From Elusimicrobia bacterium CG_4_9_14_3_um_filter_62_55 (GTDB taxonomy: Bacteria; Elusimicrobiota; Elusimicrobia; UBA1565): 37,533 nucleotides of DNA. Location: assembly GCA_002790095.1 (NCBI GenBank), contig PFUL01000146.1, positions 1 to 37,533 of the forward strand, written 5' to 3'. How positions within the stretch are numbered: the stretch's first letter is position 1; each line of letters opens with the position of its first letter. Under the pieces are notes generated by a model. That model ran no database searches and had not been told where the DNA came from. It saw only the letters and a list, made by a program, of their open reading frames with translations. The translations under genes were made by a program, and so were the position numbers. Shown here piece after piece: positions 477 to 17,772 of this stretch.

Positions 477-1817
477 GCGGCACGCGCATGATCGATTTTC
501 AAACGACAACGGCCTCCTGCGTGCGGATTCGCGGCTGCGATTTCCACCGCCGCTTGGCCCATCTGACTTCTTGGGCCTGACTGACGCTCCAGGCGATCTT
601 CGAGACCTCGAGTTCCGAATGCATCGTGCCGGCAGGATTTAAGCGCCGACGAAGTTCTAGGTTGAACCGCTCGATCAAATTCGTTGACCGCAGCAATGTC
701 CAGAACTTTTGCGGCTCGTCGTAGAATCTTGCGAAATTCTCGAACCGATGCTTGGCGCTTTCGACGGCTCCTGGATAGCGCTTCTCCCATCGTCCTTGAA
801 GCGTTCCCAGGGCTTGGATCGCTGCTTCTCGATCGACGGCCCAGAATACTTCGTGGAAGTCAGCGAGAAAAGCCTTCCAATCGCGCTTGACGATCCTCGC
901 GCGAAGGTTGCGCAGCTTGTGGACGACGCACAACTGATGCGCAATGCCGAGGCATGAGGTGGCCGCCGCTTCGATGCCCTTGTGCTCGTCAGAAACAACC
1001 ATGTGCAAGGCATCGGCGTCGAGACCGCGGGCGAGCAGTTCTTTGATGAACGCTTCCCACGAATCCTTGCTCTCGCGATCACCGAGGAAGATCCCAAGGA
1101 CATGCCTACGGCCGTCCGGATCTACGCCGATCGCGACGAGCAGGGCCTGTCTCTTCGTGAACCCAGGACGCCGAACCGGAAGGTACAGCGCGTCGAGTAG
1201 CAGGTAGTGAAGACCCTTCGGGATCGGACGCTTCTCCCAGGCGCGCAAGGTCGGTTCTAGCGCGTTCGTGAGCTTCGTGACGGTCGAAGCCGACATCCGA
1301 GCTCCTGTCGCTTCGCGCATTTCTTCAGCGACGGCCCGCGTCGAAGCGCCTCGCAGCCAAAATCGCGCCGCGAGGACGTTGCATAGATGGCGTCCGGCGT
1401 TGCGTAGCGCGTCGACCAGCGGAAGACGGATGGATCCCTTCCGCACGACCGGACGCTCGAGGGTCAGGCCGCTAAAGAGGCCGGCGACACGAAGAGGTTT
1501 GTAACCGTTTCGAGCAGTTTTCCCGCCGCGGCGGTAGGGCTCGCGTCCGAGCGCCTCGTCGCGCTCGGCCTCGAGTTGGGCGTTAAGGGCCTGGGTAATC
1601 GCAGAATTGATTTCATTTTCCACGACATTACAGACGGTTCCCGGCTGGATGACATGCCGAACTTTAGATCGCAGTTGACGAAAAGCCTGGCGTTCGATAA
1701 GCTGATTGCTGGTGTGCATGGGCGTGGCTCCTTGGTTTGTGATTGTTTAGCGACTACATTGAACCAATCACGCCCGTGCCGCCTCAAATTTTTTACACCC
1801 GAAAATCTAACACAACC
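450..1817 (-). mobile_element. Complete IS256-family insertion sequence, 1368 bp
   Basis: The element is bounded by the 8-bp direct repeat ACAATAGT (442-449 and 1818-1825). Imperfect terminal inverted repeats start GGT at both ends and match at 17 of 27 positions, including a shared GGTGTAAAA block. It carries one full-length transposase on the minus strand. Length, repeat size and 8-bp duplication all fit the IS256 family. It lies in the intergenic region between the FlaA1-like gene and the aldolase-stub operon. An intact frame and intact target repeats suggest a recent insertion. Confidence 0.85.
499..1719 (-). CDS. IS256-family (Mutator-type) transposase
   Basis: This 406-residue DDE transposase mobilises the surrounding element. 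The family pattern is visible: D176 in LLLDALYLPVR, D244 in VVSDEHKGIEAA, E350 in STNLIERFNLELRR, and a C-x2-H pair (C264/H267) between the second Asp and the Glu. The N-terminal region (RRGGKTARNGYK, about 63-74) is the usual DNA-binding part. Length is typical for IS256 transposases (about 390-420). The start at 1719 has a GGAG ribosome site 8 nt upstream. No frameshift or early stop is present, so the element is probably active. Confidence 0.95.
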   Translation of the reverse strand: MHTSNQLIERQAFRQLRSKVRHVIQPGTVCNVVENEINSAITQALNAQLEAERDEALGREPYRRGGKTARNGYKPLRVAGLFSGLTLERPVVRKGSIRLPLVDALRNAGRHLCNVLAARFWLRGASTRAVAEEMREATGARMSASTVTKLTNALEPTLRAWEKRPIPKGLHYLLLDALYLPVRRPGFTKRQALLVAIGVDPDGRRHVLGIFLGDRESKDSWEAFIKELLARGLDADALHMVVSDEHKGIEAAATSCLGIAHQLCVVHKLRNLRARIVKRDWKAFLADFHEVFWAVDREAAIQALGTLQGRWEKRYPGAVESAKHRFENFARFYDEPQKFWTLLRSTNLIERFNLELRRRLNPAGTMHSELEVSKIAWSVSQAQEVRWAKRRWKSQPRIRTQEAVVV

Positions 1818-1876: not shown

Positions 1877-2086
1877 ATGAATAAACTGCGGTTGCTTGAC
1901 TGCACCTTCCGCGCCGGCGGCTATTACAACAACTGGGATTACGAGCAGGGACTCGTTCAAGAGTATCTGGAACGGGTCGGACAGGCGAAGATCGACGCCG
2001 TCGAGATGGGATTTCGCTTCTTTCCGCAGAGGGTCTACTTTAATATCCAAGCGCTGTGTCGTCCCGGGAGCGGCAGATATCCATGA
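1877..2086 (+). pseudogene. DRE-TIM (HMG-CoA lyase-like) aldolase, N-terminal remnant
   Basis: The 69-residue frame starts like the aldolases found in glycan loci, with LLDCT, GGYYNNWDY, and a later VEMGFR. Family members continue for several hundred residues as a TIM barrel, but here homology stops near residue 52 and an unrelated tail (LCRPGSGRYP) ends in TGA. The metal-binding Asp of the CTLRDGG signature is Ala (CTFRAGG), so even this part is degenerate. It keeps a promoter-like box 8 nt upstream, and its stop overlaps the next start as ATGA (2083-2086). Probably a deletion product that now serves only as a translated leader. Alternatively it is a short functional peptide. Confidence 0.7.
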
Positions 2087-3894
2087 TCGCTTTGATTTTG
2101 GCGGCCGGTTGTGGGAACCGGATGAGGCCGTTTACTGATACCACGCATAAGACGTTGATCGATGTTTGCGGAAAGCCTATCATCAATCATATCTTCGACA
2201 ACCTTATTGCCAACGATATCCGGCGGTATGTCGTGGTCACGGGTTATCGTGCCGAAGAGCTCGAGGGCCACATTCGCCGTGACTACGGCCAAAATGATTT
2301 GACATTCATCAAAAACGAGCAATTTGCCGAAACGAATAATATTTATTCTTTGGCCCTAGCCATCGGTTCTATCGAGATCAATGAGGATATTCTCCTCATC
2401 GAGTCGGATCTCGTGATCGATTCGTCGGTGATAGCCCAATTGCTGCGGTCCCCGTTCAAAAACGTGGCGTTGGTGGATAAATATCGAAACGGGATGGATG
2501 GCACAGTCGTCACGCTGAACGCCAATGTGGTCACGAGCGTTATCCCCGGCCATCTGCAAAATGCCGAATTCGATTTTTCCGACAAATTCAAAACTCTCAA
2601 TATATATAAGTTCTCAAAGGAATTCTGCAGCAGCAGCTTCAGAAAGTTGTTGACTTACTATGCGAAAGCGATTGATGACCGTTGCTATTATGAACTGATA
2701 CTTGGGATGCTCGTATATATGCAGCAGGAGGTCATACACGCGGAGATCGTCGGAAATAAAACGTGGGCGGAGATTGATGACCCTAACGATTTGGCTGTGG
2801 CCTCATTCCAGTTCGGCAAGGATCGGCGCCTCGAAATTCTAGACACCTCGTGGGGAGGGTTCTGGAATTTCGACGCTGTAGATTTCGGTTTTATCCGAAA
2901 TATGTACTTTCCAAGCAGCGGATTTTTTTCACAGCTGCGGAATAGTTTTCCGATGCTGCTCCAAAACTATTGCTCTAAGCAGAGTATTCTAAACCGTAAG
3001 CTATCCTATTTCCTATTGTGCGATGAGCGCAACATCCATGTTCTGAACGGAGCTTCCCAGGTATTCCCTATGATCCGGGAATTGTTCGGGCATAAGTGTG
3101 CCTTGCTCCCTGCCCCCACCTTTGGAGAGTATGGGCGTCTTTTCGAAAAGACAGTGATGTATGGCGATAGCGGCGATATCGATTGGGATGAGGTCGAGGG
3201 GAAGGTCAACGACGTCGATGTCGTTGTTTTCGTAAATCCCAACAACCCTACGGGAACCACACTCGCCAGCGAGAGAATTTTGAAATTCGCCAGAGGAAAT
3301 CCAACGAAGCGGGTTGTTGTCGATGAGTCGTTTATCGAGTTCTCCGGTGAGCCGTCCCTTTTGTCGCTGCTCGAGAAAACTCCTTCAGACAATGTCCTCG
3401 TGATTAAAAGTCTCAGCAAGTCCTTGGGAATCCCCGGCATGCGCCTTGGATATATCTATTCCACTGATCGTGGATTGATGGGGCGATTCGGTGACCGGAT
3501 ACCTATCTGGAACCTCAATAGCGTCACCGAACATTTTCTCGAGATGGTTCTTAAATATCGCAGAGATCTCTCCGACTCCATCGCCAGCACGATCGCCGAC
3601 CGCGAAGAATTTCGCGACATGCTCAAAGGTGTTCCGGACGTTGAGCGGGTGTTCCGCAGCGGAGCTAATTTCGTTTTGGTTTGCCTTGGTAAGCGTTCTC
3701 CGCGGAAAGATGCGCTTGCCGACCGGCTATTGGCCAGCAGGCAGATCTACATCCGGGATATTTCTGATAAGTTCTCGGACGGCAAATCCTATTTCAGATT
3801 TGCCGTGCGCTTGCCCACCGAGAATGCCGACCTGATCGCTGCGATTAAAGGGGAACTTGTCGAAGAGGTTAGCGTTACGCCAGCGAGCGCGTAG
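2083..3894 (+). CDS. Fused CTP:phospho(no)-amine cytidylyltransferase / PLP aminotransferase-fold enzyme
   Basis: This 603-residue fusion has an N-terminal nucleotidyltransferase (about 1-240) with ILAAGCGNRMRPFT, the TNNIYSL motif (84-90) typical of LicC-like phosphocholine cytidylyltransferases, and ESD and EIDD acidic motifs. The C-terminal half (about 255-600) is a class I/II PLP fold: NPNNPTG (385-391), VVDES (D414), Schiff-base K446 in SLSKSLGIPGMRLGY. The layout matches PntC-type 2-aminoethylphosphonate cytidylyltransferase-transaminases. The PLP half could instead decarboxylate phosphoserine, as the related Campylobacter capsule enzymes do. Product, inferred: a CDP-activated amino-alcohol phosphate or phosphonate for the LicD protein that follows. 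The start at 2083 is chosen because ILAAG begins at residue 4 and ATGA overlaps the stub. An upstream ATG at 2056 is less likely. Confidence 0.8.
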   Translation: MIALILAAGCGNRMRPFTDTTHKTLIDVCGKPIINHIFDNLIANDIRRYVVVTGYRAEELEGHIRRDYGQNDLTFIKNEQFAETNNIYSLALAIGSIEINEDILLIESDLVIDSSVIAQLLRSPFKNVALVDKYRNGMDGTVVTLNANVVTSVIPGHLQNAEFDFSDKFKTLNIYKFSKEFCSSSFRKLLTYYAKAIDDRCYYELILGMLVYMQQEVIHAEIVGNKTWAEIDDPNDLAVASFQFGKDRRLEILDTSWGGFWNFDAVDFGFIRNMYFPSSGFFSQLRNSFPMLLQNYCSKQSILNRKLSYFLLCDERNIHVLNGASQVFPMIRELFGHKCALLPAPTFGEYGRLFEKTVMYGDSGDIDWDEVEGKVNDVDVVVFVNPNNPTGTTLASERILKFARGNPTKRVVVDESFIEFSGEPSLLSLLEKTPSDNVLVIKSLSKSLGIPGMRLGYIYSTDRGLMGRFGDRIPIWNLNSVTEHFLEMVLKYRRDLSDSIASTIADREEFRDMLKGVPDVERVFRSGANFVLVCLGKRSPRKDALADRLLASRQIYIRDISDKFSDGKSYFRFAVRLPTENADLIAAIKGELVEEVSVTPASA

Positions 3895-3896
3895 TT

Positions 3897-4643
3897 ATGG
3901 GCCGTAATGAGTCCTTTCACAACGCTGTCGATGTTATGCGTTCCGCTGGAGTGCCATTCTGGGTCGAGCAAGGCACGCTTCTTGGGCTAATTCGGGAGGG
4001 ACGCCTGATCCCCTGGGATCACGATATCGATTTCGGTGCCTGGAACGCCCCGGGCGCCAAGGACCGCATCATCCAAGAGTTATGCCGCCATGGGTTCATC
4101 GTTGAAGAGCTCGGACCGGAATACGGCTGTCTTCACTTTTTGAAAACCGGCTCCGATATGAAAATCGATGTGACTCTTTACTCCGAATCCGAAGGGCATG
4201 CTCGGACGACTTTTCTGGTTCAGGTGTCCGGCTGGCGGCTTTCGATTAATCGAGCCGCCAAATTACTGGGCGCGGAGGAGCCCCTGGACTTGCTTCCTAA
4301 AATGCGAGGCCACGATTGGATCAATAAGGCGGGCGTGCTGTCCGCTCATGTCCTCCATCATGTGCCGCATTTTGTGCGGAAGGCATTCGCCTCGCCGTTA
4401 TTGCTGTTGTCAAAGATTTTTCCCTGTGTAATGATGTGCCGTTGGAATCTGCCCGCGGAATTTCTGTTGGAATTGCGGGAGTGTGTTTATGGCGAATCGC
4501 GGTTTCTAGTCCCCGCCGACGACGAGGGCTATTTGGCTTTCGTATATGGGAAGGACTGGCGGACGCCTAGAAAAAATTGGATATGGTGGAAGGAAGTCGG
4601 GGGGGTGGCAATGGTGCCGTATCGGGAAGGACGCCCCTGTTAA
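3897..4643 (+). CDS. LicD-family phospho-amine transferase
   Basis: This 248-residue nucleotidyltransferase-fold protein has the LicD core: GTLLGLIREGRLIPWDHDID (residues 26-45) with acidic D41, D43 and D45, and a third acidic site in KIDVTLY (D91). LicD proteins move phosphocholine or a similar group from a CDP carrier to a glycan. It starts 2 nt after the fused cytidylyltransferase-aminotransferase, the natural source of its donor. That pairing suggests a phosphoethanolamine- or aminoethylphosphonate-like decoration rather than choline, since no choline kinase or uptake gene is seen. Contains a G7 run near 4599-4605. The acceptor sugar is unknown. Confidence 0.8.
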   Translation: MGRNESFHNAVDVMRSAGVPFWVEQGTLLGLIREGRLIPWDHDIDFGAWNAPGAKDRIIQELCRHGFIVEELGPEYGCLHFLKTGSDMKIDVTLYSESEGHARTTFLVQVSGWRLSINRAAKLLGAEEPLDLLPKMRGHDWINKAGVLSAHVLHHVPHFVRKAFASPLLLLSKIFPCVMMCRWNLPAEFLLELRECVYGESRFLVPADDEGYLAFVYGKDWRTPRKNWIWWKEVGGVAMVPYREGRPC

Positions 4644-4646
4644 GCT

Positions 4647-5411
4647 ATGAATAAAACCTATCAGGATGAGTGGCAAGGTATTCCGTTTTCTGAGTTTTTC
4701 GAAACGTCGTCTTCTAGCATTGCTAGCCGTGAGTTTTATCAGGCATTTTATGTCGAGTTCTTTAAGCGCTACCAGAATTGGGAGGAACTCGCGCCATGGT
4801 GGCGTCAAGAAAAGGAACTGTGGGCGCAATTCGTTCTAGACCAAATCGACGAGGGGGCCAAGGTGCTTTCGGTGGGTTGCGGGTTGGGCGCCATGGAGCA
4901 TTTCATGCGTTCTCGCAATCCAAATCTTGATTTATCCATTCATGAGGTGGCGCCCTCAGCCTGGGGTTGGATTGCATCTGAATTTCCCGAAGATCATAAA
5001 TTCCTCGGCCTGATTCCGGACTGTTTGCCCAAGGGTATTGCTTTCGACTTTATCTTTCTTTCAGGTATAGATTATGCTCTGGACGATGATGAGATGGTCG
5101 GTCTGCTGGCCGCGATCCGGCCGTTTTTATCCGATACGGCGCAAGCGGGCCGATGCTTGCTCCTTTCCGGGAGCTTCGAGGAAACACCGGTGACCCTGAC
5201 GGCGAAGCTGTTTTTTCTTTGGCGTGCGGCGAGGAGATTTGGCGCGATGTTGCTGGATGGCTGCGGGCTCCGCCCGCGGGGCCAATTCTGGGGGTGGCGC
5301 CGAACTCAAAGGGAATATCAAGCGCTCATGCGCCGCGCCGGCTTTCGCGATATTGAAGATGGATTTATCAGCCCAGAGCAACGCCCGCACTATTGGATTC
5401 TAGGCCGGTGA
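4647..5411 (+). CDS. Class I SAM-dependent methyltransferase
   Basis: This 254-residue protein has the glycine-rich AdoMet motif VLSVGCGLG at about 73-81, followed by an acidic IHEV strand and FDFIFLSGIDYAL (motif II region). It starts 3 nt after the LicD-like gene, so it is cotranscribed. The N-terminus (NWEELAPWWRQEKELW) is unlike the commonest glycan methyltransferases. The substrate is unknown; context suggests the sugar or phospho-amine made by this operon. No start other than 4647 is better supported. Confidence 0.75.
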   Translation: MNKTYQDEWQGIPFSEFFETSSSSIASREFYQAFYVEFFKRYQNWEELAPWWRQEKELWAQFVLDQIDEGAKVLSVGCGLGAMEHFMRSRNPNLDLSIHEVAPSAWGWIASEFPEDHKFLGLIPDCLPKGIAFDFIFLSGIDYALDDDEMVGLLAAIRPFLSDTAQAGRCLLLSGSFEETPVTLTAKLFFLWRAARRFGAMLLDGCGLRPRGQFWGWRRTQREYQALMRRAGFRDIEDGFISPEQRPHYWILGR

Positions 5412-5468: not shown

Positions 5469-5504
5469 ATGGCGCAGTCATGCCACAAGGAGCTGTCAAC
5501 ATGA
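5469..5504 (+). CDS. 11-residue leader peptide (MAQSCHKELST)
   Basis: A short frame begins 7 nt after a TATAAT box. It ends in a TGA that overlaps the ATG of the next gene (ACATGA, 5499-5504). The Shine-Dalgarno sequence of the next gene (AAGGAG, 5487-5492) lies inside the frame. The layout suggests a leaderless first cistron whose translation feeds or controls the methyltransferase. It is too short to support by homology. Confidence 0.4.
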   Translation: MAQSCHKELST

Positions 5505-6202
5505 GTAATCGGGATGCCGTATGGAAGGATATATGGGCCGAGAAGGGTTTGGAACAGGGTGTTCCGCTCCATCACGCCGACGGTTACGACCTACTTTCCG
5601 TCGATGAGTGGAATCGGATGATCCTTCAGGTTTCTCAGCCCATTGGTTTGCGCGGAGATGAAAGCATCTTGGAAAGCGGCTGTGGCGCGGGAGCTTTCCT
5701 TGCAAGCCTTCTGGCCATCTACCCCGGGTTGAAGGTGGCGGGCGTCGATTATTCGCCGTCTCTACTCGCCATCGCGCGTCAAAACTTTAAAAGCGGCGAG
5801 TTTCATGTCGCAGATATGACGGATCTAGGTTTTATCGCGAATGATTCCTATGACCATGCGGTTTCTTTCGGCACGTTCATCTATCTCTCGTCGGAGGAAT
5901 CAGCGCGACGCGCGGTGTTTGAAATGCTCCGTGTCACGAAATCGGGCGGGATTGTCTATATCGGAGAGGTCTCGGATTTGGCCAAGCGGGCGGAGGCTGA
6001 GAATATCCGTCGTGCAAGCCACGAGGCGGTGAAGAAGATCTCCGCGGCGAACCCCGATCACCTCTATCTGCCGAAGTCATTCTTCCAAAACGCAGCAGAA
6101 ATGAGCGGCTCAGGATTGAAGATTATCGACCATTCGGAATTCGATCTGGGTGATTATCAAGCGGCACGCTACCGGTATTCGGTTTATTTGAGCAAACGAT
6201 GA
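5501..6202 (+). CDS. Class I SAM-dependent methyltransferase
   Basis: This 233-residue protein has AdoMet motif I ILESGCGAGAF (about 56-66), the acidic strand end VAGVDYS, and post-motif SYDHAVSFGTFIYLS. The C-terminal RYSVYLSKR matches the final strand of small-molecule methyltransferases. The ATG at 5501 is chosen over an in-frame ATG at 5480 because AAGGAG lies 8 nt before it and the N-terminus fits the family better. It has its own promoter-like box at 5456, so it may be a unit separate from the LicD operon. Substrate unknown. Confidence 0.8.
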   Translation: MSNRDAVWKDIWAEKGLEQGVPLHHADGYDLLSVDEWNRMILQVSQPIGLRGDESILESGCGAGAFLASLLAIYPGLKVAGVDYSPSLLAIARQNFKSGEFHVADMTDLGFIANDSYDHAVSFGTFIYLSSEESARRAVFEMLRVTKSGGIVYIGEVSDLAKRAEAENIRRASHEAVKKISAANPDHLYLPKSFFQNAAEMSGSGLKIIDHSEFDLGDYQAARYRYSVYLSKR

Positions 6203-6678: not shown

Positions 6679-7710
6679 ATGGAGAATGACCTAAAACGCC
6701 TCATAGATAATGTCGAGGCGCTTAAACGCACAGCATCCGAGCGGCGAAAGGAGTCGCTTGTCTCCCTGGCGGACACCGCCAATCAAAGCATCGGAAACCT
6801 CGTTATCGGCGGGTTTCGCGAGACGGCGACGACGATCGGCACGAACTACCTTATTCGTGATTTCGATTTAGCGATTCGTTTCGTTGAGGAAATAGACGGA
6901 AAAGTCGATTTTATTCTGCTGGATGCGGAGACTAAATCAGGAAAACTCGCATCTTCGCTCGCCACCCTGGCTGAAAGGATCTCCAAAAGCAGGGTCCTGA
7001 CTTTCAAGCCCAATGACATCACGGTAGACATGATCGACGCCCTGCTGTCCCAAAAGCGAAAAATCCAAGGGACCGCGATCGGCGTACTTGGTGCCGGGAA
7101 TATCGGCGGAAAAACCGCACTTAGACTCGTCGAACGCGGCGCCGATGTTTCCCTCTATCGCCGCGACACAGCCGCGCTCGCGGCGACCATCGCCGGGATC
7201 ACCGCCATTGCAGGTCGGCATTGCCCCGGCACCGTCGCCGCCGGGACTGTCGAAGCCATCTGCCGTGAGTCCGAAATTCTCCTCTGCTGCACGCCCGGCG
7301 TCGTCTGCGTCGGCGCGAAAGAAGCAGGGATGCTGCGTCCCGGCTGTTTAGTAGTCGATGTGGGCAACGGCTGCCTGGATGAGGCCGGGATAGCGTTATG
7401 CCGCGAGCGCGGCGCCGAAGTGCTCGGCCTATTTGTGCGCCCGGCGTATATCGGCATGATGGAAACCCAGTTGGCGACAATGTCTTTGCTTGATTCCGGG
7501 ATCGGACAGATGGATATCCCCGGCGGGGCGACGGTGTGCTCCGGGGGCGCCATCGGGTCGCGAGGGACGGTCGTCGTCGATAGTCTCGCGAAGCCGCGCA
7601 CGATCATCGGGATCGCCGACGGCAAGGGCGACCTGTTGCCCCAGGACGAAGCGGTGGGCTACTCGACGGCAATCGCGGCCGCCGAACAATGGATGGCAGA
7701 GCGGGTATGA
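6679..7710 (+). CDS. NAD(P)-binding Rossmann oxidoreductase of a nonulosonate-type operon
   Basis: This 343-residue protein has a dinucleotide-binding GVLGAGNIGG (about 135-144) after an alpha/beta N-terminal domain. It has a further Gly-rich, Cys-containing part (ESEILLCCTPGVV, VVDVGNGCLDEAG). The layout resembles shikimate-dehydrogenase-, methylene-tetrahydropterin-dehydrogenase- and alanine-dehydrogenase-like folds, but no specific family is recognised. It heads the operon with two deacetylases and NeuB, so it probably oxidises or reduces a sugar precursor. ATG 6679 is used because it aligns with the paralogous start at 10352 and sits 8 nt after a -10 box. A TTG at 6661 lies in frame. The stop overlaps the next start (ATGA, 7707-7710). 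Confidence 0.65.
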   Translation: MENDLKRLIDNVEALKRTASERRKESLVSLADTANQSIGNLVIGGFRETATTIGTNYLIRDFDLAIRFVEEIDGKVDFILLDAETKSGKLASSLATLAERISKSRVLTFKPNDITVDMIDALLSQKRKIQGTAIGVLGAGNIGGKTALRLVERGADVSLYRRDTAALAATIAGITAIAGRHCPGTVAAGTVEAICRESEILLCCTPGVVCVGAKEAGMLRPGCLVVDVGNGCLDEAGIALCRERGAEVLGLFVRPAYIGMMETQLATMSLLDSGIGQMDIPGGATVCSGGAIGSRGTVVVDSLAKPRTIIGIADGKGDLLPQDEAVGYSTAIAAAEQWMAERV

Positions 7711-8393
7711 ATGTCCTCGTCGTGGCCGCGCATCCGGACGACGAGGTGTTCGGCCTCGGCGCGACGATCAAAAAGCTATCCTCGGCGGGGCATGATGTCT
7801 TCGCGGCCTACTTGTGCAGATCGGTAAAGGCCAGGAAAACCAGCCCGTCCTCAAATGAGATCGAGGGCAATATCCAGTCGGTGCAGAAGATTCTCGGCAT
7901 CAAGGATGTCGACCTGTTCGACTTTCCGAATATCCAGTTCAATATCGTCCCGAGCCTCGAGATTGTTCAGGCCATCGAATCCTCGATCGTGCGTTTTAAG
8001 CCTGAAGTCATCTTCTCGCATCACTATAACGACCTAAACGAGGATCACCGGATCGCTTACGCAGCGACGATTACGGCCGCGAAGCTCCCGGAACGACGCG
8101 GGCTTGACGGCATCAAGGCGAACATGATCCGCAAGATCCTCTGCTACGAAATCCCGTCGTCTACGAATTGGTCTCCTAAGCTGGAGAGAGCGGAGCGAGC
8201 TCCGGATGCCTTCGTCGACATAAGCGATCAATTTGACGCCAAGGTGCAAGCGATGAAGGTGTATGACCGTGAACTGCGGCCGTTTCCTCACCCGTTGTCT
8301 TTGGAAGCGATGAAGCTGACCGCGAAAATGCACGGCGGCAAGATCCATGTCCAACTCGCCGAAGCCTTTCACCTCGTCCGGGAGCTATTCTGA
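7707..8393 (+). CDS. PIG-L family zinc-dependent N-deacetylase, complete active site
   Basis: This 228-residue protein has the zinc and catalytic motif AHPDDE at residues 8-13 (H9, catalytic D11, D12). The second metal-site region is NEDHRIAY (H114), and a C-terminal HPLSLEAMKLTAKMHG segment follows. PIG-L enzymes remove N-acetyl groups from GlcNAc-type sugars. The ATG at 7707 overlaps the oxidoreductase stop (ATGA), and AHPDDE then sits at the normal distance from the N-terminus. Between the oxidoreductase and NeuB it probably deacetylates a diamino-sugar precursor or the nonulosonic acid itself, allowing a different N-acyl group to be added. Confidence 0.85.
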   Translation: MNVLVVAAHPDDEVFGLGATIKKLSSAGHDVFAAYLCRSVKARKTSPSSNEIEGNIQSVQKILGIKDVDLFDFPNIQFNIVPSLEIVQAIESSIVRFKPEVIFSHHYNDLNEDHRIAYAATITAAKLPERRGLDGIKANMIRKILCYEIPSSTNWSPKLERAERAPDAFVDISDQFDAKVQAMKVYDRELRPFPHPLSLEAMKLTAKMHGGKIHVQLAEAFHLVRELF

Positions 8394-8395
8394 AT

Positions 8396-9052
8396 ATGGC
8401 GAGGAAGGCACTCGTATTTACCGCGCACCCTTATGACGATATCCTCGCTTGCGGCGGGACTCTGCTGAAGCTCAGGGAGTCAGGATTCGAGATCCGCCAT
8501 GTCTACTTTTCGGCCGGGCCCGCCAAGGATCGGCAAGAGATCGCCAAGGGGTTGGATGCGATGAGCCAAGTGCTGACATCGCAGTTTCGCGTGTTGGATT
8601 ACGAGGTGGGACGAATTAGTGAGGAACCGAAGCGGGATATCATCGGGGTCATCGAAAGCGAGATCGCGGATTTTCAACCGGATTGGATACTGACCAACAA
8701 CGGAAATGATGTGAATATCGATCATCGCACGATTTTCGAGGCGTCGATGATCGGCGCGCGTCCCTCTCAGCCGTCGTGCGAAAAGGTACTTGCCTTCAAC
8801 CTGTATACCGGGTCGGAGTGGACCCCTCCGATCGATCGCTACGGCAACCGCAACAATTTCTACTCCGATATTTCAGGCTTTCTCGATCGCAAGATAGAGC
8901 TGTGCCGTCTTTTTCCTACCGAAATGCGGGAGAGCCCCCACCCGCGTTCGGTCGAGGCCATCCGGGGTTCGGCTATGCTGGAGGGGACGCAAGTCGGACT
9001 GCACGCGGTCGAGGGATTTCAATTGATCCGCGAGGAGGCCGTCCTCATCTGA
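8396..9052 (+). CDS. PIG-L family protein with altered catalytic motif
   Basis: This 218-residue paralogue of the preceding deacetylase has AHPYDD (residues 10-15) in place of AHPDDE. The zinc ligands H11 and D14 remain, and NIDHRTIF supplies the second His (H110). The position of the catalytic-base Asp is Tyr13. By comparison with MshB-type enzymes this should impair normal hydrolysis. It may be a regulatory partner of the first PIG-L protein, or use another base. It starts 2 nt after the first gene, with GGGAG upstream. The C-terminal SPHPRSVEAIRGSAMLEG aligns with the equivalent segment of the first copy. Confidence 0.8.
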   Translation: MARKALVFTAHPYDDILACGGTLLKLRESGFEIRHVYFSAGPAKDRQEIAKGLDAMSQVLTSQFRVLDYEVGRISEEPKRDIIGVIESEIADFQPDWILTNNGNDVNIDHRTIFEASMIGARPSQPSCEKVLAFNLYTGSEWTPPIDRYGNRNNFYSDISGFLDRKIELCRLFPTEMRESPHPRSVEAIRGSAMLEGTQVGLHAVEGFQLIREEAVLI

Positions 9053-9067
9053 CGCCGAGGAGAGAGT

Positions 9068-10114
9068 ATGTCGAGTATTGTCGAGATTGACGGAGTTCAC
9101 ATCGGAGCCGGGCAGCCCTGCTTTTTCCTCGCTGAAATCGCCGGAAATTTTGCCAACGAGGAGGAGGCTGTTCGCATCGTGGACTCGGCGGTTCGCGCCG
9201 GGGCCGACGCGATCAAGTTTCAGACGCTGGACCCGGAGACCGTCACGACAAAATCAAATCGCTTCGACATGGGTTCGGTGGGGACACGCCTTCAGTACGA
9301 GGTATTCGTCGAATCTTATACCCCCCCCGCCCTCCAGCTTTTTCTCATCGAGTATTGCCGCAAAAAAGGGGTTGTCGCTTTCTCGGCCCCCAGTCATTTG
9401 AGAGACCTCGAGTTAATGGAGCGTTTCGATCAGCCGGCGTATAAGATCGGTTCTGATCTTGCGACCCATTTACCCCTTTTAAAGGAAGTCGCGAAAACGA
9501 AGAAGCCCATCTTCCTATCGACCGGAATGTGCACGATGCAGGAAGTCCGCGAGTCCGTCGAGGCGGTGATGGATACCGGAAATGAGAACTTGCTTTTGTT
9601 TCACTGCGTCTCGAATTACCCGGGCCTTATTGAAGAACAGAATTTAAGGGCGATGGCCGCGATGAAGGCGGAGTTCGGACTGCCTACCGGTTTTTCGGAT
9701 CATATGGTGGGCATCGACGCCTCCCGCGCGGCGGTGGTGCTGGGGGCGGACATGATCGAGCGCCACTATTGGTGCGCGGGAAATGCGGCAGGCCCCGATC
9801 GCGAGATATCCTCGGACGAAAGGGAGTTCGGGGAACTGGTCGGGTTCGCGGGCAGAATACAAGCCGCTTTGGGTTCGTCTGAGAAAGCGCCGACGGCGAA
9901 CGAACTTCGCAATTTACGCACAAACCGGGTCAGCATCGTGGCCATGGAGAAGATCGCTTCCGGATCGCCGGTCACTGAGACGGCAATTGACATCCGTCGG
10001 CCCGGCTACGGTCTCGCTCCGAAGCATTGGGAGCGCATCATCGGTTCCACCGTCGTGCGTGATGTCGAGGCGGAGACGCCTTTGACGGCCGCAGATTTCG
10101 GGTGGAAGGAATAG
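9068..10114 (+). CDS. neuB: NeuB/PseI/LegI-family nonulosonic acid synthase
   Basis: This 348-residue enzyme condenses phosphoenolpyruvate with a six-carbon N-acyl amino sugar to give a nine-carbon acid. The TIM barrel (about 15-275) shows AEIAGNF, IKFQT, AYKIGSDLATHLPL, STGMCTM, FHCVSNYP and GFSDHMVGI. The C-terminal SAF antifreeze-like domain (about 285-348) includes RPGYGLAPKHWERIIG. Both match the NeuB fold and its length. The start at 9068 has GGAGAG 6-7 nt upstream. Whether it makes sialic, legionaminic or pseudaminic acid cannot be told from motifs. A C8 run lies at 9321-9328. No intact neuA follows. Confidence 0.92.
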   Translation: MSSIVEIDGVHIGAGQPCFFLAEIAGNFANEEEAVRIVDSAVRAGADAIKFQTLDPETVTTKSNRFDMGSVGTRLQYEVFVESYTPPALQLFLIEYCRKKGVVAFSAPSHLRDLELMERFDQPAYKIGSDLATHLPLLKEVAKTKKPIFLSTGMCTMQEVRESVEAVMDTGNENLLLFHCVSNYPGLIEEQNLRAMAAMKAEFGLPTGFSDHMVGIDASRAAVVLGADMIERHYWCAGNAAGPDREISSDEREFGELVGFAGRIQAALGSSEKAPTANELRNLRTNRVSIVAMEKIASGSPVTETAIDIRRPGYGLAPKHWERIIGSTVVRDVEAETPLTAADFGWKE

Positions 10115-16027: not shown

Positions 16028-16696
16028 TCAGCACAGCCTCGAGATGAAGTCTTCGGTGGCCAAATCGCGGTTTTCGGCGCCGCGGACCAAGGCGCAGGCG
16101 CGGAGATAATCCTCTTCGGTATCGATAGTTAGGCGGATGTCGGGACGGCGTTTAAGGGTGGGAACCTCAAGCGTGACGGTTCGGTAACGCTCGGGATGCT
16201 CAAGGGCGACCTCGTCCAGGTGCTCGAAATGATGCGGCTGGTCGGCCTCCCGCAGGCTCTGTTCCAGAGCGTCCCGGGTGAATATCTCGGCGCCGACGCC
16301 CACGGGAAGAGCGTCCAGTGAGTGCGCGAACGCGGCTTCGGAATCCCGGTGCAGGTCGATGAGGCGATCGAGTTCCTCTATGTCGGTGAAGGGATTGTCG
16401 CCGGTTAAGCGAATAACCCTGGAGAACCCGAATCGTTCTGCGCAGGCGACGAAGCGTCCGAGCACGTTCTCCTCGCTTCCGCGAAACAGGCCGCAGCGCC
16501 TCTCGGAGCAAAACGCGGCGATTGTGTCGTCTTGGGGAAGTTCGGTGGTCGCCACGACAATGGAGGCGATGTTTTTCAGGGCGCCTAAGCGGGAGAGGAT
16601 ATGCCCCAGCAACGGGCGTCCGCCGATCGGTTTGAGAACCTTCCCCGGCAACCGCGTCGATCCCATGCGGGCCTGGATGACCGCGCCTAGGGACAT
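16028..16696 (-). CDS. SpsF-like cytidylyltransferase-domain protein
   Basis: This 222-residue nucleotidyltransferase has the classical start GAVIQARMGSTRLPGKVL (residues 4-21), the substrate-loop motif RLTGDNPF and a C-terminal RLTIDTEEDY. These mark SpsF/NeuA-related cytidylyltransferases. The ATG at 16696 is chosen because the motif then starts at residue 4 and the codon overlaps the upstream stop (TAATG). A longer frame to 16801 would add a Lys/Arg/His-rich extension copied from the neighbouring gene. It could activate the nonulosonic acid made by the NeuB operon, whose own neuA is broken. Confidence 0.8.
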   Translation of the reverse strand: MSLGAVIQARMGSTRLPGKVLKPIGGRPLLGHILSRLGALKNIASIVVATTELPQDDTIAAFCSERRCGLFRGSEENVLGRFVACAERFGFSRVIRLTGDNPFTDIEELDRLIDLHRDSEAAFAHSLDALPVGVGAEIFTRDALEQSLREADQPHHFEHLDEVALEHPERYRTVTLEVPTLKRRPDIRLTIDTEEDYLRACALVRGAENRDLATEDFISRLC

Positions 16697-17772
16697 TAGG
16701 TACCGATGGTTTGGGACCGGTTCACATAATTCTTGATTGTGATGGTCCGTCCGTCGACCACGGCCTTCTCGTCTTCGCGGATGCTGCGTGGAAGATAGCA
16801 CTTGCGGCAGGGTGCGAATTCCTTGAAGCCGTCAAGCCGTTTATGTTGGGCGCGAATGGCGTTCAACTCTTCGCCGTGCCAAATCTCATGCACGCTCTGC
16901 GCGTTGGCGTCGCCTACGGAGATGCTCCCCTCCTCGTCATTGGAGCACATCATCGCCTTGCCGTCGGAACCGATCACCAAGCGCTGATAGAGTTGCGGGC
17001 AGGAAAAACCCTCGACATAGGGAGTGAGTTCATCTTTGCCGAGATAGTCGATCAGCGGATTAAAGGCGACCATGTCGACTAGAGGCGCGAAGGTATTGTA
17101 AAAGCCTTGCGGGTCTTCGCTGATCGCGGGCCAAACCGACTGCACCTTAAGCACCGGCTTCTTGAGCCCGCGCTCGCGCTTGATCGCGGCTGCGTTCGCG
17201 ACATTCTCCAGGATTTCGGCGAACTTGATGGGCGCGCGAATGCTCTCATACATCGCCCCGGTGCCGTCGATCGACAAAGTGATCCAATCCGCCCCGGCGG
17301 CGACGAGTTCTTGGAAAAAATCGGGCTTCATGCGCGATCCGTTGGTCAAAAACGACACCTCGCGAATTCCCGAATCCTTGGCGTAGCGCAGACATTCCAG
17401 GAATTTAGGATGCAAGGTCGCTTCGCCGCGGAAGCTGATCCTAAGCGCCGGTACCTTGCCGGCGATTTCATCGACGATTTTCTTGAAGAGGTCGAATTTC
17501 ATCATCTGGACGGCGACCTTGCTCTTGAACTCGTCGGTGATGGTGTAGCACATGGGGCATTTAAGGTTGCAGGCGGAAGAGAGTTCCGCGTCGACGAGAA
17601 GCGGGTAGTCCGCGACTTCCTGGGCAAGCGGCAGCCGCGTCCAACTATCGCGGTACTCGCGGTATTCTTTTTCCCAGCCGTCCCCACGGGCGGCTTCGAA
17701 GCGTTCTTCTCGCTCCGGGCCCTCCATGCTGTAATTGCCTTTATTGATCGGAATGTGCTGTTTATGGCTCAT
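16696..17772 (-). CDS. Radical SAM / SPASM protein
   Basis: This 358-residue protein has the iron-sulfur motif C68-x3-C72-x2-C75 (SSACNLKCPMC), ISFRGEATLHP in the GGE-motif position, and a C-terminal SPASM-type cluster region with C258, C276, C322 and C325. Radical SAM enzymes of glycan loci do deoxygenation, deamination or epimerisation. Some SPASM members act on peptides, and no peptide substrate gene is seen here. It lies next to a class I aminotransferase, a DegT aminotransferase and a split transketolase, suggesting a shared unusual-sugar pathway. The exact reaction is unknown. Confidence 0.85.
   Translation of the reverse strand: MSHKQHIPINKGNYSMEGPEREERFEAARGDGWEKEYREYRDSWTRLPLAQEVADYPLLVDAELSSACNLKCPMCYTITDEFKSKVAVQMMKFDLFKKIVDEIAGKVPALRISFRGEATLHPKFLECLRYAKDSGIREVSFLTNGSRMKPDFFQELVAAGADWITLSIDGTGAMYESIRAPIKFAEILENVANAAAIKRERGLKKPVLKVQSVWPAISEDPQGFYNTFAPLVDMVAFNPLIDYLGKDELTPYVEGFSCPQLYQRLVIGSDGKAMMCSNDEEGSISVGDANAQSVHEIWHGEELNAIRAQHKRLDGFKEFAPCRKCYLPRSIREDEKAVVDGRTITIKNYVNRSQTIGT

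Follow-up and report, generated by a model that had tools for sequence, protein, structure and literature searches.

Organization of the locus

The window, by which we mean the whole stretch of DNA that was analysed, comprises 37,533 nucleotides of contig PFUL01000146.1 from Elusimicrobia bacterium CG_4_9_14_3_um_filter_62_55, a 4.3-Mb assembly of 202 contigs that is 95% complete. Close to its start lies a gene encoding a two-domain fusion protein, followed on the same strand by a gene of the LicD family and by two methyltransferase-like genes (MT1 and MT2), with 2, 3 and 68 bp separating successive members of the series. Upstream are an aldolase remnant and an insertion sequence.

442-1826, strand not assigned: IS256/Mutator-type insertion, bounded by 9-bp duplications ACAATAGTG at 442-450 and 1818-1826
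499-1719, minus strand: IS256/Mutator-type transposase (Transposase_mut, 5e-72)
1877-2085, plus strand: remnant of an HMGL-type aldolase, its first 51 aa, recognized by homology to intact aldolases; probably outside the module
2083-2817, plus strand: N-terminal nucleotidyltransferase domain of the fusion (residues 1-245), predicted CTP:phosphoethanolamine cytidylyltransferase
2818-3894, plus strand: C-terminal PLP domain of the fusion (residues 246-603), predicted O-phospho-L-serine decarboxylase
3897-4643, plus strand: LicD-family phosphotransferase (Pfam LicD), predicted to transfer a phosphoethanolamine-type group from CDP to a glycan
4647-5411, plus strand: MT1, divergent SAM methyltransferase-like protein (Methyltransf_23, below cut-off)
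5480-6202, plus strand: MT2, fusion-associated SAM methyltransferase recognized by a family HMM, candidate N-methyltransferase

The open reading frame of the fusion spans 2056-3894 (+), and comparison with homologues places its start at the ATG at 2083, giving a protein of 603 aa. A nucleotidyltransferase resembling LicC and PntC (residues ~1-245; NTP_transferase 4.5e-12 and NTP_transf_3 1.3e-11 over residues 3-123) is joined to a fold-type-I PLP enzyme (residues ~250-600; Aminotran_1_2 7.1e-24 over residues 315-583). Because full-length homologues, 46-56% identical, are found in 14 named genomes, the fusion is no chance reading frame. The catalytic residues are intact (the Schiff-base lysine K446, D414, NPNNPTG, R454 and R572) and are conserved in the 81 aligned fusions. 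AlphaFold predicted the whole chain with a mean pLDDT of 93.4 and a pTM of 0.87, and a whole-chain Foldseek search ranked PntC-AEPT first, although the rigid superposition was poor (TM 0.38); the PLP half modelled by itself from one sequence reached a pLDDT of 40, and that model was set aside. The original prediction, a fusion of a LicC-like domain to one with aminotransferase motifs and LicD directly behind it, is thus borne out by the Pfam domains, the 2-bp gap and the full-length homologues.

The region downstream contains NeuB, two PIG-L deacetylases, a CMP-type transferase and aminotransferases, together a nonulosonate-type set, along with glycosyltransferases, a polysaccharide flippase-like protein and a Wzy_C protein, which between them mark it as a surface polysaccharide region. 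The genes for NeuB, the two PIG-L proteins and the CMP-type transferase (7689-10114 and 16028-16801) may represent a nonulosonic acid pathway within this same region.

Upstream, the aldolase remnant corresponds over its first 51 aa to the N-termini of complete HMGL-type aldolases, which measure ~320-530 aa (highest identity 42%, E 1.5e-12), and reads RAGG in place of their RDGG; the end of its frame overlaps the fusion start in the sequence ATGA. That the stub signifies a lost step of the same pathway had been suggested. The stub is real, but the aldolase motif occurs in the flanks of no fusion locus, and we therefore reject a lost partner of the fusion and regard the remnant as most likely the debris of a neighboring gene. 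The IS256/Mutator-type element sits between this remnant and a gene cut by the start of the contig. It can also be dismissed as the cause of the truncation, since the remnant lies downstream of both 9-bp duplications.

The nucleotidyltransferase half

Among structures in the PDB, the N-terminal half is equally close to PntC (6pd1, 9e-13) and LicC (1jyk, 1e-12), and it keeps the conserved motifs TNNIYSL and W.EIDD..D. In the crystal structure of PntC, the primary amine has Glu104 and Glu196 close by; in LicC, both positions are occupied by Asp (PMC6697681). E107 of the window protein aligns with Glu104 of PntC and is invariant (81 of 81 fusions). This residue favors a substrate with a primary amine, such as phosphoethanolamine, and fits phosphoethanolamine and AEP alike.

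The PLP half

In this PLP superfamily, a few substitutions can switch an enzyme between decarboxylase and transaminase reactions, which tempers any assignment of the C-terminal half. The best curated (NCBIfam) model is CobD, threonine-phosphate decarboxylase (TIGR01140), at 159.5 bits against a cut-off of 290.55, followed by HisC at 124 bits. A profile built from 36 fusions ranks SMUL_1544 (6oux) first in the PDB at 3e-72, ahead of 3ftb, 3fkd, Salmonella CobD and then HisC proteins, and Foldseek likewise places 3fkd, SMUL_1544, 3ftb and CobD above other HisC entries. SMUL_1544 is reportedly a phosphoserine decarboxylase.

The phylogeny that had been proposed as a check was run under LG+C20 on 47 PLP halves and references, with Cj1436 and Cj1437 left out. 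All 28 fusions in it form one clade with SMUL_1544 (support 100/99), and CobD and HisC fall on the opposite side. The topology uniting SMUL_1544 with CobD is rejected (log-likelihood lower by 45.5, AU p 0.001); a second AU test concerned the same split as the first, so that this evidence is counted once. The SMUL_1544 branch is long, which makes its placement less sure than the support values alone would indicate, and we regard its position with the fusions as strong but not final.

Residues at three positions are decarboxylase-like and differ from those of HisC: F417 of DESF (DEAY in HisC), W476 (Y/F in HisC) and R/K576 (G in HisC). They set the fusions, SMUL_1544 and most CobD references apart from HisC, with 3fkd deviating at two of them. 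A further signature, Y-x-S298, is present in 80 of 81 fusions and, among the references, in SMUL_1544 only; CobD and HisC have Asp or Glu there. The surroundings of the fusion hold surface polysaccharide genes and no cobalamin genes. Given the grouping with SMUL_1544 and the CobD-type residues at the three positions, the PLP half is most likely a phosphoserine decarboxylase. The idea that this half itself makes the precursor, by decarboxylating phosphoserine, was already part of the original prediction and gains support here.

LicD and the methyltransferases

The LicD protein matches the Pfam LicD model at 3.1e-10 (40.9 bits, against a gathering threshold of 22.6) over residues 16-46 only, which is the active-site stretch. 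It has the acidic motif PWDHDIDFG and a divergent C-terminal part, and its closest homologue is the LicD that adjoins the fusion at another locus, L024 (30% identity, E 1e-24).

No relatives of MT1 were found in the fusion loci. MT2, two genes from the fusion here, belongs to a family whose members adjoin fusions at L015, L017, L021, L022, L027 and L077, mostly within 60 bp; at L022, from the cultured Pedobacter sandarakinus, the methyltransferase and LicD come immediately after the fusion. MT2 scores 121 bits with an HMM of those six methyltransferases, built with the window copy left out, and no other methyltransferase of the window exceeds 41 bits. When a profile of the family that includes MT2 was run against the PDB, the top 2 of 158 matches, by a small margin, were phosphomethylethanolamine and phosphoethanolamine N-methyltransferases; a search with the single MT2 sequence did not display this preference for phosphoethanolamine methyltransferases. 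N-methylation of the amine by MT2 is plausible on these grounds. Should the nucleotidyltransferase half indeed prefer a primary amine, methylation may come after activation or transfer.

Supply of phosphonate and choline

The absence of a phosphonate mutase and of a choline gene had been noted from the window, and it extends to the genome: the pepM search of the whole assembly returned no PEP mutase match, and no match to choline kinase (LicA, PF01633) was found. The PEP mutase search is able to detect its target, since among 100 genomes of the phylum it gave matches above cut-off in 6. Of 30 further genomes that carry a fusion, 29 are likewise without PEP mutase. With the genome 95% complete and in 202 contigs, the two absences here are not absolute.

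The fusion family and its neighborhoods

A genome scan yielded at least 476 confirmed relatives, of which 80 were kept; with three from the phylum, these make a set of 83 fusions from many phyla. Two clades can be told apart among them. Clade I, which includes the window protein, contains fusions 46-56% identical to it from Fibrobacteres, Eisenbacteria, Cyanobacteria, Bdellovibrionales, Actinobacteria, Latescibacterota, Pedobacter, SAR324 and others. Fusions of clade II share 32-36% identity with the window fusion; they are common among gut Clostridia, Bacteroidales and Spirochaetes and extend to archaeal bins. A LicD gene lies within 6 kb at 7 of 14 clade I loci and 25 of 67 clade II loci.

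The two clades differ in what else accompanies the fusion. The dedicated methyltransferase family occurs mainly in clade I and an opine dehydrogenase in clade II, where it stands beside the fusion at ~20 of 67 loci (among them L008, L009, L010, L031, L038, L040, L046, L049, L059, L067, L073-L075, L081, L085, L088 and L089) and at none in clade I. This suggests that in clade II the ethanolamine may be N-alkylated through reductive amination with a 2-oxo acid; a literature search returned no paper tying carboxyethyl-ethanolamine phosphate to opine dehydrogenase. At L040, the opine (octopine/nopaline) dehydrogenase is itself fused to LicD. Among 100 immediate neighbors of clade II fusions, a sample from which most opine dehydrogenases had been excluded beforehand, the commonest Pfam families were LicD, OCD/mu-crystallin (10 of 100) and CDP-glycerol glycerophosphotransferase (8 of 100). 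The ornithine cyclodeaminase/mu-crystallin proteins, second in this order, are another possible imine-reducing enzyme.

At three loci, a CDP-alcohol phosphatidyltransferase directly adjoins the fusion (L016:9133-9981, L026:9169-9897 and L037:9233-9979), raising the question of whether CDP-ethanolamine is used there for lipid, in a possible kinase-free bacterial Kennedy route. The common thread between these neighborhoods is a CDP-activated amino alcohol, together with enzymes that use it or alter its amine.

Proposed pathway

We consider it probable that the fusion is a phosphoserine decarboxylase-CTP:phosphoethanolamine cytidylyltransferase that feeds LicD. The C-terminal half would convert O-phospho-L-serine to phosphoethanolamine by decarboxylation, the N-terminal half would combine this with CTP to form CDP-ethanolamine, and LicD would then attach phosphoethanolamine, or a form of it N-methylated by MT2, to a sugar of the surface polysaccharide encoded by the rest of the window. 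The foundations are the domain content, the intact active sites, the gene order, the families to which the two halves belong, the grouping with SMUL_1544 and the lack of a match to PEP mutase or choline kinase. From these we infer the phosphoserine substrate, the CTP specificity, the product, the acceptor and the N-methylation. The decoration module of the original prediction stands as far as LicC-like activation and transfer by LicD are concerned; its amino-phosphonate does not, in view of the class of the PLP half and the missing PEP mutase.

Other readings of the locus have to be weighed against this one, and two of them concern the reaction of the PLP half. It could be an aminotransferase like the capsule enzyme Cj1437, which catalyses the formation of serinol phosphate from dihydroxyacetone phosphate (PMC11800397), in which case serinol phosphate or a similar amino-alcohol phosphate would be made and CDP-serinol would be the product. 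The matches to Aminotran_1_2 and to HisC models are in keeping with this, but in the tree, which was computed without Cj1437, the PLP half sides with SMUL_1544 and not with HisC, and the three diagnostic positions are those of a decarboxylase, which together make an aminotransferase unlikely. Decarboxylation of O-phospho-L-threonine, leading to CDP-(R)-1-amino-2-propanol, would follow from the top curated model being CobD, yet the score falls well under the CobD cut-off, the window is without cobalamin genes, the tree parts the fusions and SMUL_1544 from CobD, and Y-x-S298 replaces the CobD aspartate; we judge this distinctly improbable.

The remaining two concern the module as a whole. The aldolase remnant and the IS256-type copy directly upstream might be taken as signs of an eroding island in which the fusion is now functionless. 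However, neither the fusion nor LicD nor MT2 is shortened, the fusion retains all of its conserved residues and the insertion lies outside the three reading frames, so that a decaying or unused locus has very little to recommend it. An amino-phosphonate module like that of PntC, in which AEP made elsewhere is converted to CMP-AEP for LicD to transfer, could call on the nucleotidyltransferase half being as near to PntC as to LicC and on the Glu at the position of PntC Glu104. Set against this are the PEP mutase missing here and in nearly all of the other fusion genomes searched, and a PLP half that is not a class V AEP transaminase: it matches Aminotran_1_2 and not Aminotran_5, and the sequence match to 6pd1 covers residues 3-135 only. 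We rate this reading lowest of all and reject it on the PLP class and the missing PEP mutase.

Returning to a decarboxylase-cytidylyltransferase that makes CDP-ethanolamine, its consequences would extend well beyond this genome. The usual sources given for phosphoethanolamine and phosphocholine at the surface are phosphatidylethanolamine or choline taken up from outside, and a single enzyme leading from phosphoserine to CDP-ethanolamine would constitute another route. Such an enzyme would also provide a function for a family found in hundreds of genomes, including those of gut Bacteroidales, Clostridia and Treponema, and gene neighbors alone would predict which surface polymers bear phosphates of amino alcohols. 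Fusions of this kind have probably been open to misinterpretation as phosphonate enzymes, which the present reading corrects. More tentatively, and with the balance tilted somewhat against so general a claim, this widespread and nameless family may as a whole be a CDP-ethanolamine synthase working from phosphoserine, which with the dedicated methyltransferase would allow N-methylated or choline-like head groups to be made de novo, with no uptake or kinase for ethanolamine or choline, and which in sister lineages would be paired with an opine dehydrogenase to give carboxyalkyl-ethanolamine decorations. A literature search turned up no member of the family with an assayed activity and, within a search that left subscription papers mostly outside, no description of a phosphoserine decarboxylase-cytidylyltransferase fusion.

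Comparison with known systems

The nearest counterpart in architecture is PntC-AEPT of Treponema denticola (Tde1415, 6pd1/6pd2), in which a LicC-like cytidylyltransferase is fused to a class V AEP transaminase (PMC6697681). The two share the domain order, cytidylyltransferase followed by PLP enzyme, as well as LicD-like neighbors and a role in surface decoration. However, PntC clusters carry PEP mutase, which is not found here, and the window protein has a class I/II PLP half of the CobD/SMUL_1544 type, so that the likeness to PntC-type enzymes drawn in the original prediction fails at this half.

For the PLP half, the closest relative is SMUL_1544 of Sulfurospirillum multivorans (6oux), a CobD-like decarboxylase of norcobamide synthesis that stands alone in a cobamide operon (PMC7755780). 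Fold, sequence and tree clade are shared, as are the DESF, W-N-x-N, Y-x-S and R-x-A-x-R motifs, whereas SMUL_1544 has no nucleotidyltransferase. CobD itself (L-threonine-O-3-phosphate decarboxylase, 1lc5) shares the fold and acts on a phosphorylated hydroxy-amino acid, but the window protein scores too low for the family model, branches apart from CobD in the tree and sits among different genes. A precedent for the proposed reaction in surface polymer synthesis is Cj1436 of Campylobacter jejuni, an L-serine phosphate decarboxylase that supplies ethanolamine phosphate for the capsule (PMC11800397). Cj1436, which works with Cj1435 and Cj1438, is unfused, and its ethanolamine phosphate is joined through an ATP-dependent amide bond rather than by way of CDP and LicD.

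Cytidylyl activation followed by LicD transfer is the logic of the lic operon for choline decoration, where LicC and LicD perform the two steps. The lic system requires imported choline and a choline kinase, whereas no choline kinase was found in this genome. The fusion belongs to neither the PntC nor the CobD group, and most likely operates as the first half of a lic or Kennedy pathway would, with phosphoserine as the starting material.
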